Positions 43,664 to 51,096 of a stretch of DNA of 64,000 bases are shown piece after piece. The translations under genes were made by a program, and so were the position numbers. The first letter of the stretch is position 1, and the number at the start of each line of letters is the position of its first letter. The DNA is taken from contig JAIBDD010000001.1 of NCBI GenBank assembly GCA_024679565.1, positions 62,001-126,000 on the forward strand, read 5' to 3'. Source of the DNA: Bacteroidota bacterium. Lineage in GTDB: Bacteria > Bacteroidota > Bacteroidia > NS11-12g > UBA9320. Under the pieces are notes generated by a model that worked only from the letters and a program-made list of their open reading frames with translations, made no database searches and was not told the origin of the DNA.

Positions 43664-46600
43664 ATGATCCTAATTACCCGTAGTATTTTTATCCTATCTA
43701 TACTCCTTTTGATGTGGCAAGACTCCACCGCTCAATACACGACCATAGGTCCAGTTACCTTTACAAGTAACACCTATGGCCCGATGGTTTGCAGAACGGA
43801 TAGTGCCAATGCGTTTAGCCGGCATGCATACATTTACCCTTCAGCTACATTAGGTGATTTGGCTCATGGAGATTCTATTCGAATGATAGAGTTCTTTAAA
43901 ACCAATGATTTTGTATATGCAGGTACGCCTAATTTCAAAATGTATGTTGGCATGTCTGACTCTGCTGATTTTGGTATTGGCAATATTCAAAGTTGGTCTA
44001 CAGAAACCAGTAGAAAGGGCGTTCAAAAGGTATTCGACGGATCTATACAGTCTATAGTTGACGCAACAGCGGGATACAAAGCGTTTGTTTTTGACACAAT
44101 GTTTGTTTTTGATACAACACAAGGAAGTCACCTAAAGATTTTAGTGGAGTTTTACCAAAATACCGCTCAGCCAGTTGGCCTTATCCCACTCTGGGCGTAT
44201 GAAAACAACTTCACTGTTACGGGATTCGTTTCAAATAATGAAACCAAATATATTTTTGGTGTCAATCAAGCACCTGATTCGACCATATTCACACAAGTAC
44301 GTAAACCCTCAATACGAATACATTTTCCAAGATACGACACCAATGCCGCAGTAAACAATGTGTACGCTTTAGGTGAGTTGGCGCTGTTAATGGCTCCTGT
44401 CGATACTATTAAATTCAATGTGCGCAACACAGGAAAGAAAGTGCTACACAACCACCCATTTGAAGTGGCGATATCTGGTGCGAATAGTTTCAGAGACACG
44501 GTGTATGTGGATACACTGCTTACCAACAGTGACAAAATGTTATTCTCACATACATACAAGCCTAAAAACAAAGGGGTTGACACGGTAACTGTCCGGAGTT
44601 TAGGAGACCCTTATAGCTTGGACGACACTACTGTATTTATGAGAAAAATCTCACACAACGTTTTAAGCCACAACAATCCATTTGTTACCAATGCAGCGTT
44701 TGGTATCGGGTTTAATGGTAGCTCAGGAGATTTTATTGCAAAGTACTATACCGATAGCAACTACATTAATCAAATAAAAATTGGTTTCTCATCTTCAGGC
44801 CTACCTTTTATGTTGGGTATATGGCAAGAAGATTCAAATGGTGGGCCTGGAAAGGAAATATACACGTCAGACACATTGTTGAGTAATGGAGGACAATACA
44901 TCCAACCCGTATTGCCTAAGGTGCAAGTCCGTGATGGGTATTTCGTAGGAATTCGTCAGCTAGGCACACAGAATATCGCATTTAATTACGAAGCGGAAAC
45001 ACCCGTAAGACCTGGTGTTTTTTATTTTGCTGCACCCGCCCGAGATACAAACTGGACCTCATTTTCACCCGGTTTTGACTTTAACTTTGATATTCAACCC
45101 AGAATCCAAATTTCCCACGACGTTGCGGTTATAGGTATAACTTATCCTGCTGATTTAGATACGTTTGAATTTAGTATCGGTGATAGCATCAAACCCAAAG
45201 CCATCGTGTACAATTACGGTGTGAAAGATCAAAACAACCCATTTGACGTTGTTTGCGAAATCCTCGACCAGTTCAATAATGTGGTATACAAAAGCATTAA
45301 GATCATTACCCTTGACGCTGAGGATAGTTTAGAAATTACGTTCGACAAACCATTTTCGTTAGGAAATTATGGTGATTTACGCATGCTGGTTTACACCAAA
45401 TTGTCAGGAGATTTGGCTATAGAAAATGACAGTTTGGCTATCGATTTTAGCATCTATGTAAACTACGATATTCAGGTGGAGAGTTTCTTTGAACCCATTG
45501 CTGGCGCACGTTATGAATTAAATAAAGACAAAGTAAGCCCTACCGTACGGATGGTCAATTTTGGCTCTAGAGATCAGTCTAACATACGCGTTACCTCTAG
45601 AATTCGCCAAGATACTAAAATCGCTAAGGAGCAAACTCAAACCATAAGCCTTGCTGGTGGAGGTAGTCAGATACTTGCGTTCGATTCTGTTACCATACCT
45701 TTTGCAGGTGACGTCATATTCGAAGTGTTCTGTTGGAATGCAATTGATAGTTTCCCAGTGAATGATACCGCTCGCGTCACGGTTGAAGTTGTTAGAAGCA
45801 ACGACTTAGGCATAGTTTCTGTCATCCGCCCGAGAGACAGTTCGGTTTACGAACGAAATCAAGTATTTAGGCCCTATCTAAATTACCGCAATTTTGGGTT
45901 AGGTGACCAAGACTCCACAGTTGTTACATGCGCCATAACTGATGAACCCGGGTCGGTGATTTATCGTGACACGGTGATTAGATCGCTCCCTAAATTCAGT
46001 ACAATTCAAGCACTGTTTAAAGATTTTAAAGCCCCAAACAAAGCGCAAACTTTAACATTTGATGCGAAGACTTGGATCGCAGGTGATCAAGACACGACAA
46101 ATGATCGGATTTCTACTCAGTTCTTTATTAAAACTAAAACAGACCTTGCATTAGTGGCAATAAAGGACCCTGTTAAGGATTCCTTGTACTTGCTGGGTGA
46201 CACGATTAGTCCTAAAGTTACTGTTGTAAATATTGGCAACACCATTGTTCCTGCCACTGCTCAATTGTTTTATCGCATAGTTAATTCTACAGGAGCTGAG
46301 GTGTACTTTGATTCAACTACTATAGGAAGCACTCTGGCCATAGATAACGGTACCGACGTGAACTTCCCTGATTTTGTATTCTTTAACATCAAAGATGCGT
46401 ATAACGCAGTGTGCTTTATTAAACTTCCAACAGACGGTGAGGCGGGCAATGATACATTGAGGACAAACTTTAATGCATCAGCGAAAAATTCAATTTCCTT
46501 GGGTGGTATTACGTTACCTACTCATAATCAAGTGTATCAACTCAATATAGACACAGTGTTTCCTTCATTTAGTATTGTTAACTCGGGATTAAATGATATT

Positions 46601-47425
46601 AGCAACCCTGTCTATTATACCGTAACATTTGACAATAATGGTTCAGAAGTGTATCGCGATTCTGACTCTATAACGGTCTTATTATCTGAAACTTCTATCG
46701 AGATTCAACCAATGCCTTTTGTGCCTTTGGTTACTGGTAAAATCAAGATGACGGTGACGATTCAGAACGTAGATGATGAAATTGTTTCAGACAATGAATT
46801 AGAGCGCGATTTCTTTGTTTCACTTCAAAACGATGTAGCGTCAATCGCCTTTGTGTATCCAGAAATAGATTCTCTGGTTTTTGCCAATAGAACTTACGCG
46901 CCAAAAGGCCAGTTCCGTAACTTGGGAGACAGTGCACAACGGAGTGAGTTTAGTGTCTCCTATATTATTTCGTTGAATGGTACACAACTATATAACTCCA
47001 ATAAAAACATCACGCTTGACTCTGGAAGTGCAATAACCGTTGGTTTTGACAGCACATTCACCCCCACAACACCAGGAACGTATGATATGTTTTTGATTAC
47101 TCGACTTGGTATAGATCAAGTGCTGACTAACGATACCTTGACAGGGTCGTTTGTTGTCGACTTTCATAGCTCAACGCCTATGATTCAATCCTATGGCATA
47201 AAACTCTATCCAAACCCTTCAAACAGCACCGTATTCATATCTTCCACAAACAGTACAATTAAGTCGGTCGAAGTATTTAGCGCAAATGGACGTATCATAG
47301 AAGTTCTAAAGATGAACCACAACAAATCAGTTGAAGTTGACGTCACTCATTTTGTACCTGGTTTTTATTGGTTCAGGATTGAAATAGGAGACAAATTTGT
47401 TTGGCAAAAAGTGATTACGAATTAG
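43664..47425 (+). CDS. Large T9SS-sorted protein with six CARDB-like repeats
   Basis: A 1253-residue exported protein. After the signal peptide (about 1-24) comes a beta-rich N-terminal region (to about 480). Six tandem repeats of about 114 residues follow, starting near 485, 600, 712, 826, 942 and 1056; each opens with a D-(I/L/V)-x-(I/V) strand and contains a (V/I)xNxG turn, as in CARDB/Ig-like adhesion modules. A type A T9SS sorting domain ends it (LYPNPSNSTVFIS, final FVWQKVITN). A surface adhesin or fibre role is inferred. Its stop overlaps that of the convergent subtilase gene. Confidence 0.85.
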   Translation: MILITRSIFILSILLLMWQDSTAQYTTIGPVTFTSNTYGPMVCRTDSANAFSRHAYIYPSATLGDLAHGDSIRMIEFFKTNDFVYAGTPNFKMYVGMSDSADFGIGNIQSWSTETSRKGVQKVFDGSIQSIVDATAGYKAFVFDTMFVFDTTQGSHLKILVEFYQNTAQPVGLIPLWAYENNFTVTGFVSNNETKYIFGVNQAPDSTIFTQVRKPSIRIHFPRYDTNAAVNNVYALGELALLMAPVDTIKFNVRNTGKKVLHNHPFEVAISGANSFRDTVYVDTLLTNSDKMLFSHTYKPKNKGVDTVTVRSLGDPYSLDDTTVFMRKISHNVLSHNNPFVTNAAFGIGFNGSSGDFIAKYYTDSNYINQIKIGFSSSGLPFMLGIWQEDSNGGPGKEIYTSDTLLSNGGQYIQPVLPKVQVRDGYFVGIRQLGTQNIAFNYEAETPVRPGVFYFAAPARDTNWTSFSPGFDFNFDIQPRIQISHDVAVIGITYPADLDTFEFSIGDSIKPKAIVYNYGVKDQNNPFDVVCEILDQFNNVVYKSIKIITLDAEDSLEITFDKPFSLGNYGDLRMLVYTKLSGDLAIENDSLAIDFSIYVNYDIQVESFFEPIAGARYELNKDKVSPTVRMVNFGSRDQSNIRVTSRIRQDTKIAKEQTQTISLAGGGSQILAFDSVTIPFAGDVIFEVFCWNAIDSFPVNDTARVTVEVVRSNDLGIVSVIRPRDSSVYERNQVFRPYLNYRNFGLGDQDSTVVTCAITDEPGSVIYRDTVIRSLPKFSTIQALFKDFKAPNKAQTLTFDAKTWIAGDQDTTNDRISTQFFIKTKTDLALVAIKDPVKDSLYLLGDTISPKVTVVNIGNTIVPATAQLFYRIVNSTGAEVYFDSTTIGSTLAIDNGTDVNFPDFVFFNIKDAYNAVCFIKLPTDGEAGNDTLRTNFNASAKNSISLGGITLPTHNQVYQLNIDTVFPSFSIVNSGLNDISNPVYYTVTFDNNGSEVYRDSDSITVLLSETSIEIQPMPFVPLVTGKIKMTVTIQNVDDEIVSDNELERDFFVSLQNDVASIAFVYPEIDSLVFANRTYAPKGQFRNLGDSAQRSEFSVSYIISLNGTQLYNSNKNITLDSGSAITVGFDSTFTPTTPGTYDMFLITRLGIDQVLTNDTLTGSFVVDFHSSTPMIQSYGIKLYPNPSNSTVFISSTNSTIKSVEVFSANGRIIEVLKMNHNKSVEVDVTHFVPGFYWFRIEIGDKFVWQKVITN

Positions 47426-49101
47426 TCATTCAATTCACCTTGTAACTCCTTTACTACCGTCTTTTCTCCAGCTTGATTTTCAGCGTAGAACGATAAGGTT
47501 ACCTTTTTGCCGTTTGGAATGTTGTAAAGCAGTACCTGCATCCGACCAAAACCAATGGGGTCTAACGTACACTCCGTTTTTGAACGTGTTTTAAAGTATT
47601 TGAAAAACAAGAATCGCTTTTGTTGCTTTACGGCACAAAACCCTTTCACATAATCAGGTGCGTAAATACTCACCGATTCTTCATGCTCATATTTTGTTTT
47701 GTTAAAGTTTATGACTTGCCGTTTTGTGTAATCGAATGATGGGTGCTTACCGGTCATTTTTAGGGCCAAATCAAAATCTGGAACGCCATACCCAATCACA
47801 TTGTCTGGATTGTAAAACAAATGCCCTGAGCGTTTTATAATTTGTTTGATTTCGAGTGGAGTAAGTGTTTTGTTAGCTTCCCACAAACAGGTAGCCAAGC
47901 CAGCAATTATTGGAGAGGAATAAGACGTCCCATACCCTGTACCAATACCATACGTGGTAGCTACATATGTTTGTTTGCCCAGTGCAGCCACATCCGGTTT
48001 AATCCGAAAATCTGAAGTTGGCCCTGGTGAGCTAAACGCCGGTGCTTCCAAATTATGGTCTACGGCTCCAACAACAAGTATGTCTTCTACATCGGCAGGA
48101 AAATCTAGTTTTCCCCAACTCTTATTTCCATCGTTCCCGGCAGAATTAACTACGAGCATTCCACGAGAAGCCGCAATAGCCGCACCACGGCTGATATAGG
48201 TCGTTTTACCATCTAAATCAGCATGAGAATGGTTTAAACGGGTTTCGTCGAAATGGTTATAACCCAATGAAGAGTTGATCACATCAACCCCCATAGAGTC
48301 AGCAATTTCAGCTGCGCGAACCCAATTCAATTCTTCCAACCATATTTCATACTTGTTGGACTCTGTCCTAATCAAAACATAATCTGCCGCTGGAGCTGCC
48401 CCAATCATGGTTGAAGATTTGTTGGCTGCAATGCAACCAAAAACATGCAATCCATGGTCGTCATCATCATAGACGTTTTTTTCCAAATCAACGACATCTT
48501 CTGTATATACAACTTGTTGATTATTAAATATTTGTGAGAATAAACTTAGTTTATTCACTTTGCGAAATCCCGCGTCAAACACGGCTATCATCATGTTGTC
48601 TCCAAGAAAACCAACTTTATGCAAATCGGTACCGTTTAGCATGTCTAACTGTCGAAAGCCGTCACCATATTGATGTTTAAACGAATCATCTGGCGCCAAT
48701 TCCTCCTGCCTTCCAGACCTATTTGTTTTTTCTATGCTTTTGCCCAAGTAGACTACATCATCCACGAAAAATTTAATTTTCAAACGCCAAGCGGTGTCCA
48801 TTGAGGCAGTTGAAATAACCGCTCCGTTAAGCCATTTAGAAACATACCTCACTTGAATTGAAGGCTTACGGATGTTGTTTATATAAGCCGCTGTGACGGG
48901 CAAGTCTAAAGAATCGATGGGTATATGAAGACGAGTTCTACGTTCTAATGCTCTATCAGACATAAAAAAGTCTGGCTTTGTGATATCAACGTAGTTTAGG
49001 CCTTTATCGTGAAACTGAACAAAGAAATGGTATGTCGTTTTAGAAGCTGCATAACTCATAGTCGACATAACAACCAAGAGCAATCCTGTATATTTTCTCA
49101 C
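47422..49101 (-). CDS. S8 subtilisin-family serine peptidase
   Basis: A 559-residue secreted subtilase: signal peptide (about 1-18), a propeptide-like part with the Bacteroidota pattern FMSDRALERRTR and DLPVTAAYI, then the S8 domain with catalytic Asp in AVFDAGF, His in DDDHGLHVFG and Ser in GTSYSSPIIAG, and the oxyanion Asn in NSAGNDG. A C-terminal beta domain of about 100 residues follows, without a recognisable T9SS sorting domain. It begins 4 bp after a lipoprotein gene and is the last gene of a four-gene operon. Confidence 0.92.
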   Translation of the reverse strand: MRKYTGLLLVVMSTMSYAASKTTYHFFVQFHDKGLNYVDITKPDFFMSDRALERRTRLHIPIDSLDLPVTAAYINNIRKPSIQVRYVSKWLNGAVISTASMDTAWRLKIKFFVDDVVYLGKSIEKTNRSGRQEELAPDDSFKHQYGDGFRQLDMLNGTDLHKVGFLGDNMMIAVFDAGFRKVNKLSLFSQIFNNQQVVYTEDVVDLEKNVYDDDDHGLHVFGCIAANKSSTMIGAAPAADYVLIRTESNKYEIWLEELNWVRAAEIADSMGVDVINSSLGYNHFDETRLNHSHADLDGKTTYISRGAAIAASRGMLVVNSAGNDGNKSWGKLDFPADVEDILVVGAVDHNLEAPAFSSPGPTSDFRIKPDVAALGKQTYVATTYGIGTGYGTSYSSPIIAGLATCLWEANKTLTPLEIKQIIKRSGHLFYNPDNVIGYGVPDFDLALKMTGKHPSFDYTKRQVINFNKTKYEHEESVSIYAPDYVKGFCAVKQQKRFLFFKYFKTRSKTECTLDPIGFGRMQVLLYNIPNGKKVTLSFYAENQAGEKTVVKELQGELND

Positions 49102-49105
49102 CTAA

Positions 49106-49756
49106 TTATTTTTTAGTAAATGAATTTAGTTTCCAGCGTAATTCATACCCTTTGCGCTTATTCTGTTGTTTTTCTAATGAAATGGTCTGCTTTTCGATCA
49201 GTCCAACATCCTCTGCAAAAAGTTCCCATCTTATATCTTCATCGATTATTGTAGTATCAAAGGCTTGTTGTACAAACACATTGTTTGAAAATGACTCGGC
49301 AAGAGTTGCTCTGCTTTTGTGGGTATTGATGTACCGAAATCGATCTTCTGATGCACTATTCAATTGATTGCCATCCCAAAACACTCTTGCTTTTACTGGA
49401 AATAAAAGGTGAACGATAGGCTTGTTATCAATAGACCTGACCGCACGAATATCATTCTTATACATCAGCATGGTCTTAAAGTATTGCCAATCTGTTGTAT
49501 CACTTCGAAACGAAACATCTGCATAATACCTATCTGTTTCGCTGGTAATGTCTGCTATTTCTACAATTACCTCTTTTCTCCAGTACGAATACGTGTCAGA
49601 CTGTTGTGTAAAGTCATCAAAGTGAATTGAATCAACGTTGTATATCCATTCATTTTCAAGTGCAAGTGGGAAATAATCAAAGCCAATACTTGTTGGTTCT
49701 TCAATTTCTCTACAACCTACAATACTGAGAATAATAATCAACGCGCTAATACGCAT
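49106..49756 (-). CDS. Lipoprotein of a three-copy paralogous set (third)
   Basis: A 216-residue lipoprotein (lipobox SIVGC, Cys15). I do not recognise the family. The mature part opens with FDYFPLALENEWIYNVDSI, matching the two proteins upstream (FGYGYFPLNIGNTWIYQVDS and FGDDYLKLQEGTTWIYVIDS); the shared core is a W-I-Y strand followed by V/I-DS and an acidic residue. A hydrophobic LLFPVKARVFWDGN also has a counterpart in the first copy. It overlaps the second lipoprotein gene by 11 bp and is 4 bp from the subtilase, so one transcript is likely. Confidence 0.85.
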   Translation of the reverse strand: MRISALIIILSIVGCREIEEPTSIGFDYFPLALENEWIYNVDSIHFDDFTQQSDTYSYWRKEVIVEIADITSETDRYYADVSFRSDTTDWQYFKTMLMYKNDIRAVRSIDNKPIVHLLFPVKARVFWDGNQLNSASEDRFRYINTHKSRATLAESFSNNVFVQQAFDTTIIDEDIRWELFAEDVGLIEKQTISLEKQQNKRKGYELRWKLNSFTKK

Positions 49757-50405
49757 AGTTTAGCAGAGATTTGGTTATTGTGGTTTTGGTGTTGCGTAAA
49801 CGATCATAACGTAACTCATAAATCAACCCTACTCCCTTGCCGTAATACGAACGATGCGATTGAGAGATATCATTGTGGTGATATTCGTAATGAACCACAT
49901 CCATAATATCATAATAGGTTTTGTCATTATGCGTGAATTGGTCTAATTGATCATCAATTATCGACTGCGCATTCAAACAAGTATTGTTTAAATTATACCA
50001 CTTGGCCCCGGCCTCAAGCGGATTGGTTAATGCAATAATGTTGTAATCACTACCCATATGCACTACCCGGTCGTTATACAGCTGTAAGGTGTATACATCA
50101 ACTTTCTTATAGTCAATTGTGGTGTCGGATGTGCGATAAACGTCTATCTTATATGTTGCGCTACGTTGCGTAATCTCAACATGGCTCACTACCTCCTTCT
50201 GAAAGTACATCTGATGCTGCATCGGGTCAATTAAATCCATCTGTACAGAATCTATTACATATATCCACGTGGTGCCTTCTTGTAACTTCAAATAGTCATC
50301 ACCAAAGCTTGAATACCTAGGAATAGCTACATCTTTTTCGCAAGACATAAAGGTAATGGTGACAACCAGTCCCAACAACACGCTTATGAATACTTTATTT
50401 TTCAA
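49746..50405 (-). CDS. Lipoprotein of a three-copy paralogous set (second)
   Basis: A 219-residue lipoprotein (lipobox FMSC, Cys22). Its N-terminal FGDDYLKLQEGTTWIY links it to its two neighbours, and it ends in a run of strands (YYGKGVGLIYELRYDR) where the others have a counterpart of the GLI(E/Y) type. Divergence outside these segments is large, so the duplication is old. It overlaps the genes on both sides by 11 bp, the mark of translational coupling. Function unknown. Confidence 0.83.
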   Translation of the reverse strand: MKNKVFISVLLGLVVTITFMSCEKDVAIPRYSSFGDDYLKLQEGTTWIYVIDSVQMDLIDPMQHQMYFQKEVVSHVEITQRSATYKIDVYRTSDTTIDYKKVDVYTLQLYNDRVVHMGSDYNIIALTNPLEAGAKWYNLNNTCLNAQSIIDDQLDQFTHNDKTYYDIMDVVHYEYHHNDISQSHRSYYGKGVGLIYELRYDRLRNTKTTITKSLLNYAY

Positions 50406-51096
50406 ATGATTTCAATGTATAGGTGTAATCATATCCCTCAGGAATTTCTGTGGTATCTCCTATGGCTTTTTTTGTCCAAAATATCTGTCTTGCATAAATC
50501 AACCCATTATCCTCGGCGTACTTTTCTATACCATAGTTACGCAGTGTTTTAAACGCTTCATCGCGTTGCACAACGTGCAATGTATTCACATACATCGTGG
50601 TATCAATTATTTCAGTCGACATTTCTTCTAAAATTTCATACTCCTCTTTGTTTTTCGTGTTGTAGGCATTGGCATCCCAATACTTATATAAACTCGGAGG
50701 GAATACCAAGTTGATAACACGGACATTAGAATCTAAAACCTCCGCTCTGAACGCTGTAATTCTTTTTACCATGTTTCTATCAAACACAAACGCACCATTT
50801 AAGGAATCTGTCCGAGACACCTCTACAATACTACTTCTCACCCCTTGATTATCTATGATTGTATCAACTATTTCCTGTTTTACCAAAAATCTAAAGGTAT
50901 CTATCGTTTTTGCAAACGCATCATAATCGATAGAATCCACTTGGTAAATCCATGTATTGCCAATATTCAAAGGGAAATATCCATACCCAAAATCATTTGG
51001 TCGGGGTTCAATAGCGTTCTTCCTGCAGCCCATTTCCACCATCAAAACAGTGATCATAGAAACCATGATAGATATGTATGCAATTCGTTTAATCAT
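50395..51096 (-). CDS. Lipoprotein of a three-copy paralogous set (first)
   Basis: A 233-residue lipoprotein (cysteine at 24, MVEMGC, a loose lipobox). The mature part opens FGYGYFPLNIGNTWIYQVDS and then follows the same order as the third copy: a VINLVFPPSLYKYWDAN segment and a C-terminal NGLIYARQI strand. It is the first gene of the minus-strand operon that ends in the subtilase. No function can be given from the sequence. Confidence 0.84.
   Translation of the reverse strand: MIKRIAYISIMVSMITVLMVEMGCRKNAIEPRPNDFGYGYFPLNIGNTWIYQVDSIDYDAFAKTIDTFRFLVKQEIVDTIIDNQGVRSSIVEVSRTDSLNGAFVFDRNMVKRITAFRAEVLDSNVRVINLVFPPSLYKYWDANAYNTKNKEEYEILEEMSTEIIDTTMYVNTLHVVQRDEAFKTLRNYGIEKYAEDNGLIYARQIFWTKKAIGDTTEIPEGYDYTYTLKSFEK

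Follow-up and report, generated by a model that had tools for sequence, protein, structure and literature searches.

A lipoprotein family encoded directly upstream of an S8 subtilase across Bacteroidia

A conserved lipoprotein-subtilase gene pair

We analysed a 64,000-nucleotide stretch of a Bacteroidota genome assembly (GCA_024679565.1, JAIBDD010000001.1 positions 62,001-126,000; hereafter the window, to which all coordinates refer), in which three tandem lipoprotein genes, A, B and C, are followed by the gene of an S8 subtilase. The lipoproteins are members of a family that has no Pfam or NCBIfam model, here called LIP. The conserved unit is one LIP gene together with the subtilase gene, an ancient two-gene module, and the triplet is a genus-level expansion. 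We tentatively prefer to read LIP as an accessory at the outer membrane, which may dock the subtilase, tune it or bring its target to it.

Within the window's family, LIP is present in 35 of the 38 genomes, in one to four copies that usually lie directly upstream of S8, and genomes of the sister family in the same taxonomic order usually hold two. Relatives outside the order were found in Segetibacter koreensis, Echinicola shivajiensis, Algoriphagus litoralis, Siphonobacter and metagenome-assembled genomes (MAGs) of Saprospiraceae. A total of 92 collected loci have LIP immediately upstream of S8 on the same strand, and the reverse order (S8 before LIP) occurs in none of the loci collected. The gap between the two genes has a median of -11 bp and is at most 120 bp in 89 of the 92 loci, as measured with a simple open reading frame (ORF) caller that picks starts mechanically, so that large overlaps are partly artefacts of start choice. 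Upstream of the pair lies folD (n = 42), mnmA (n = 19), lptG (n = 9) or another gene (n = 22). Given this variation, the LIP-S8 pair outlives its surroundings. A previous sequence-only reading of the window had treated the three-gene layout as the unit, whereas the tandem copies belong to the window's lineage.

The tightness of the coupling was gauged in 392 genomes sampled evenly from the phylum, with the S8 subfamily delimited at 500 bits or more against a profile of the linked S8 proteins; this cut-off was set after the scores were seen and is a convenience rather than a tested subfamily border. LIP was present in 33 genomes and S8 in 58, and in all 22 genomes with both the genes are adjacent, as counted by hand from the coordinates. 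Separation of the genes in relatives, which the sequence-only reading had named as evidence against itself, is seen in part, in the form of lineages that keep one gene, and not among the sampled genomes that hold both. The joint function proposed in the same reading is supported in part, by a linkage that is strongly backed and kept across Bacteroidia in changing contexts; a physical interaction and a direction of regulation are what we infer.

Several observations weigh against a functional partnership. A large share of the 92 loci was drawn from the window's order, so that they are not independent, and some come from close relatives or from the same genome. In the phylum sample, 11 genomes have LIP without S8 and 36 have S8 without LIP. 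In a Flavobacteriaceae-like family, most LIP-less genomes that were inspected carry S8 directly after mnmA, and a genus within the window's family (g3, loci L072-L075) keeps LIP by folD while the linked subtilase is absent from the locus. The distance correlation of LIP and S8 (mirror-tree) was 0.40 +- 0.11, against 0.24-0.32 for a housekeeping control (FolD/QueE), an excess that is not significant. In several LIP-only genomes, LIP comes after a gene of the size of mnmA and is not followed by S8. The best reading of these patterns is that mnmA-LIP-S8 is an old order from which the genes were lost separately. Since either gene can be kept alone, neither strictly needs the other.

The main rival to an accessory role draws on the same facts: LIP and S8 would be two envelope genes co-inherited in an old order, with no common mechanism. 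The single losses at the mnmA locus and the lack of a significant mirror-tree excess over the QueE control favour such independence, but the pair has been kept in one order, often overlapping, while the flanking genes were swapped, and no genome of the phylum sample has both genes apart. We consider independence unlikely, although it is the alternative that survives best.

LIP genes without an adjoining S8 were also found outside the order, in the Saprospirales isolate GYS_P2D and in some Chitinophagaceae and Crocinitomicaceae MAGs. Genomes of the Crocinitomicaceae type (loci L140, L143, L145 and L149) have LIP in a different conserved cluster, made up of genes for a glycosyltransferase, a HAD-type phosphatase, a MORN-repeat-like protein and LIP; in L145 and L149 it continues with a further gene pair and secDF, and none of the four clusters contains a subtilase. 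Other, lower-scoring S8 genes of genus g3 lie on other contigs. More distant subtilases form tandem pairs in G291, G464, G162 and G358, and at the two loci read (L193 and L194, in G401 and G291) they come after a methionyl-tRNA-synthetase-like gene, without LIP.

The LIP proteins: sequence, export signals, fold and history

All four ORFs lie on the - strand, in the order A, B, C, S8 and at the positions given in the sequence-only reading, and their coordinates bear out its description of three tandem lipoproteins of 233, 219 and 216 residues that overlap by 11 bp each and lead within 4 bp into S8. Copy A (50395..51096) has an ATG start, copy B (49746..50405) is a divergent paralogue with a TTG start that is kept in the genus, and copy C (49106..49756) adjoins the protease gene. 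The overlaps between A and B (TTGAAAAATAA; 50395..50405, - strand) and between B and C (ATGCGTATTAG; 49746..49756, - strand) have counterparts of equal length at the LIP-LIP junctions of G032 and G035. In two further species of the genus the A/B and B/C junctions again overlap by 11 bp and B again starts with TTG, which is consistent with selected translational coupling.

Pairwise blastp comparisons linked A with C (E 4e-24, 27% identity), A with B (4e-12, 23%) and B with C (2e-11, 28%), and none of 1000 shuffles matched any of the observed pairwise scores. The paralogy claimed earlier is borne out by these values, and we regard the three proteins as diverged but true paralogues on the strength of the alignments. 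They share an opening signature, [FI]-G-x-x-Y-[FL] ... W-I-Y-x-[VI]-D-S; the sequence-only reading had recognised this shared motif and miscounted its first part as F-x-x-Y-F/L. It had also called the family unrecognised, and indeed neither Pfam nor NCBIfam returned a credible family when the three lipoproteins and all 52 aligned relatives were scanned. A search of PDB sequences with one copy and with the family profile gave nothing relevant, and a single-protein search of IMG/VR viral contigs with copy A found no relative and hence nothing that points to a phage origin.

Inspection of the lipoboxes by eye qualified the earlier statement that all three proteins have one: that of C is canonical (IVGC), that of B acceptable (FMSC) and that of A atypical (EMGC, with the cysteine at Cys24), though the cysteine of A and its surroundings are kept across the genus. 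We infer that the LIP proteins are lipid-modified and located at the outer membrane. In C. canimorsus, the strict lipoprotein export signal (LES) for surface exposure is C-X-K-(D/E)2 after the cysteine (PMC5080379). From the cysteine onwards, the window copies read CRKNA, CEKDV and CREIE, and the strict signal is absent from all three; since other species use other signals, the copies may still be surface-exposed. Across the LIP family, lysine stands at +3 in 83 of 136 proteins, and 7 of 136 have the strict signal.

An AlphaFold2 model of mature copy A, built from a 52-row alignment, is nearly all-beta with a mean predicted local distance difference test (pLDDT) score of 92, and copy A is confidently predicted to be a beta half-barrel. 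The model is compact and has no disordered linker except at the N-terminus. Its best match among solved structures is 3fzx (Z 14.4, root-mean-square deviation (rmsd) 4.6, 174 of 210 residues aligned), followed by 4fvs (Z 13.1). Proteins of the LolA/LolB/RseB/MucB group match at Z about 6.6-8.3, values that may reflect just a common arrangement. Copies B and C would, by homology, have the fold of copy A, the one copy modelled; the idea that the three proteins fold differently, raised in the sequence-only reading as a check on itself, finds no support at this level.

A tree of 149 LIP proteins places the first copies from four species of the genus in one starred clade, the last copies in another and the middle copies in a third, which has long branches. 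In the sister family, too, first and second copies group largely by position. Ratios of non-synonymous to synonymous substitution (dN/dS) against the nearest species are 0.07 for A, 0.03 for B, 0.06 for C and 0.02 for S8, with dS high and imprecise; all four genes are under purifying selection. The position-specific clades and this selection indicate that LIP was duplicated in the genus before the sampled species split and that the copies are old and maintained rather than freshly redundant. Such a history suggests that roles are probably divided among the first, middle and last copies.

The subtilase and its surroundings

The subtilase of the window (47422..49101, - strand; 559 residues, GTG start) is a normal S8 enzyme that matches Pfam PF00082 (E 1.4e-38). 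Its catalytic triad (D176, H216 and S393) and the oxyanion residue N323 are invariant in the alignment of LIP-linked relatives (A3), and the triad is also invariant in A5, A6 and A7. Three regions were delineated. An N-terminal prodomain (residues about 22-123; 48733..49038, - strand) is modelled with pLDDT about 85-97 over most of its length; the catalytic domain (residues 167-439; 47785..48603, - strand) is defined by the Pfam match and the model; and a C-terminal beta region (residues about 450-559; 47425..47754, - strand), in which no sorting domain of the type IX secretion system (T9SS) is recognised, has a low-confidence model. The prodomain assignment is supported by alignment with unautoprocessed pro-subtilisin E (3whi), which matches residues 22-448 of the model (Z 39.8, rmsd 3.2, 344 aligned). 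The enzyme has a complete S8 triad and carries a prodomain of its own.

At E 0.01, the T9SS sorting domain Por_Secre_tail was not detected in the window's S8, in any of the 19 S8 proteins of its family or in any of the 24 of the sister family (0 of 43 in the order). A T9SS sorting domain was present in 19 of 24 proteins of a wide S8 set, two proteins of the window's family included, and in 10 of 13 LIP-less relatives. Since none is recognised in the window's order and the genome itself encodes a T9SS cargo right beside the subtilase, the enzyme is probably not T9SS cargo here; the periplasm or the outer membrane is the natural guess for its location. We also considered LIP as a general stand-in anchor for the T9SS domain and rejected this, as a rough motif test found sorting domains in 31 of 86 LIP-linked and 11 of 19 unlinked subtilases. 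Complementarity of the two could still apply within the window's order.

The neighbouring cargo is a 1253-residue T9SS type A protein with Por_Secre_tail and a weak CARDB-like match (43664-47425, + strand), convergent with the subtilase gene. A homologue occupies the equivalent position in 17 of the 42 folD-context loci, and in one genome without S8 at the locus it still adjoins LIP. Two further S8 genes of the window's genome are unlinked to LIP, G000:C50:5598-6971 (489 bits) and G000:C19:35475-36764 (411 bits), as scored with the linked-S8 profile.

Possible roles and relation to known systems

Our preferred reading of LIP as an outer-membrane accessory runs as follows. In the cell envelope of Bacteroidia, LIP and the subtilase would make up a functional module of two genes, in which LIP, a lipid-anchored beta half-barrel of the outer membrane, would be made just ahead of the subtilase from one message. 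It could then dock the subtilase, or its ligand or substrate, at the outer membrane, or tune the maturation or activity of the enzyme, and would not be a general inhibitor of it. In this genus, the duplicated copies may have taken on specialised roles.

A bolder version, which we hold to be quite unlikely as a whole, is that LIP represents a new class of partners for proteases at the outer membrane, in which a half-barrel lipoprotein would bind a dedicated subtilase and set where or on what it acts. The subtilase of the window's order would then have lost its T9SS signal and be retained at the outer membrane by duplicated, specialised LIPs in a mixed complex.

The sequence-only reading had offered protected substrates or inhibitors as the meaning of the arrangement, and both have been weakened by the subtilase's own prodomain and by the LIP-less subtilases. 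As a dedicated inhibitor or an immunity-like guard, LIP would spare the envelope from the subtilase; it is encoded first, overlapping or abutting the protease gene, and a lipid anchor would put it where the enzyme appears. However, an enzyme with its own prodomain, together with the many genomes that keep the subtilase without LIP and others that keep LIP without the subtilase, makes this improbable in our judgement. The LIPs could also be imagined as substrates that the subtilase sheds or processes at the surface, as would suit multiple lipoprotein copies beside a single protease, and in most other lineages the T9SS sorting domain could let the enzyme reach surface lipoproteins. Yet the half-barrel is compact and without a disordered linker past its N-terminus, LIP is conserved where the protease is missing, and the protease has no recognisable sorting domain in the window's order, so we rate this idea lower still. 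Very unlikely, despite the fold similarity to LolA/LolB/RseB/MucB, is a LolB-like or lipid-handling factor that inserts lipoproteins or lipids, with the subtilase as quality control of the same cargo, because Z-scores of that size may come from a common arrangement, the fold of 3fzx and 4fvs (function uncharacterised) is closer, the LolB proteins described in F. johnsoniae are encoded at loci other than that of LIP (PMC11885536), and LIP was undetected in the sampled genomes of the Flavobacteriaceae-like family.

No account of a LIP-subtilase pair came up in full-text searches, in agreement with the sequence-only reading, which knew no described system of such a layout; the searches covered open-licence papers and are not proof of absence. 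Both partners belong to known fold classes, and the lipoprotein family is unnamed. For a family without a Pfam or NCBIfam model, these results supply a predicted fold, show a wide spread through Bacteroidia and identify a gene that is its constant partner. They offer a first testable hypothesis for LIP and for the subtilase subfamily, some members of which have a T9SS sorting domain and others none. The partnership, if genuine, would represent a means of positioning or regulating subtilases at the Gram-negative outer membrane that has not been described before.

Among known families, DUF3108_like (PF21347) was suspected to include LIP from common motifs, namely a similar opening Y-[FW]-P-x-x-x-G-x-x-[WL]-x-[YF] and a late A-x-[DG]-V-G-[LI]-[IV] noticed by eye in one member, L223. 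Membership was not supported by hmmscan, in which none of the 52 LIP proteins matches the model at E 0.1, and profile comparison gave local support, aligning 25-55 N-terminal residues with a probability of 14% for three members and 88% for one (signal peptide included).

The closest fold over nearly the whole domain is that of 3fzx (BF2203, Bacteroides fragilis) and 4fvs (BDI_3050, Parabacteroides distasonis), which are exported proteins or lipoproteins of Bacteroidota of similar length, described as having a 'YmcC-like fold' and an uncharacterised function. In contrast to this structural likeness, neither is matched when the LIP profile is run against all PDB sequences up to E 10, and the sources found record no subtilase linkage for them, unlike LIP. 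The LolA/LolB/RseB/MucB superfamily of periplasmic and outer-membrane half-barrels may share the overall topology, and LolB is likewise an outer-membrane lipoprotein, whereas the fold match is weaker, there is no sequence match and the closer fold relative lies elsewhere.

On the side of the enzyme, T9SS-exported S8 peptidases of Bacteroidota are a close comparison, in that the same subfamily mostly has a sorting domain in other lineages, while the window's order is without a recognised one. Prodomain-bearing subtilisins such as pro-subtilisin E resemble the subtilase of the window in their prodomain, catalytic domain and intact triad, and differ in that the latter has an extra C-terminal beta region and belongs to a distinct, LIP-linked subfamily of Bacteroidia.

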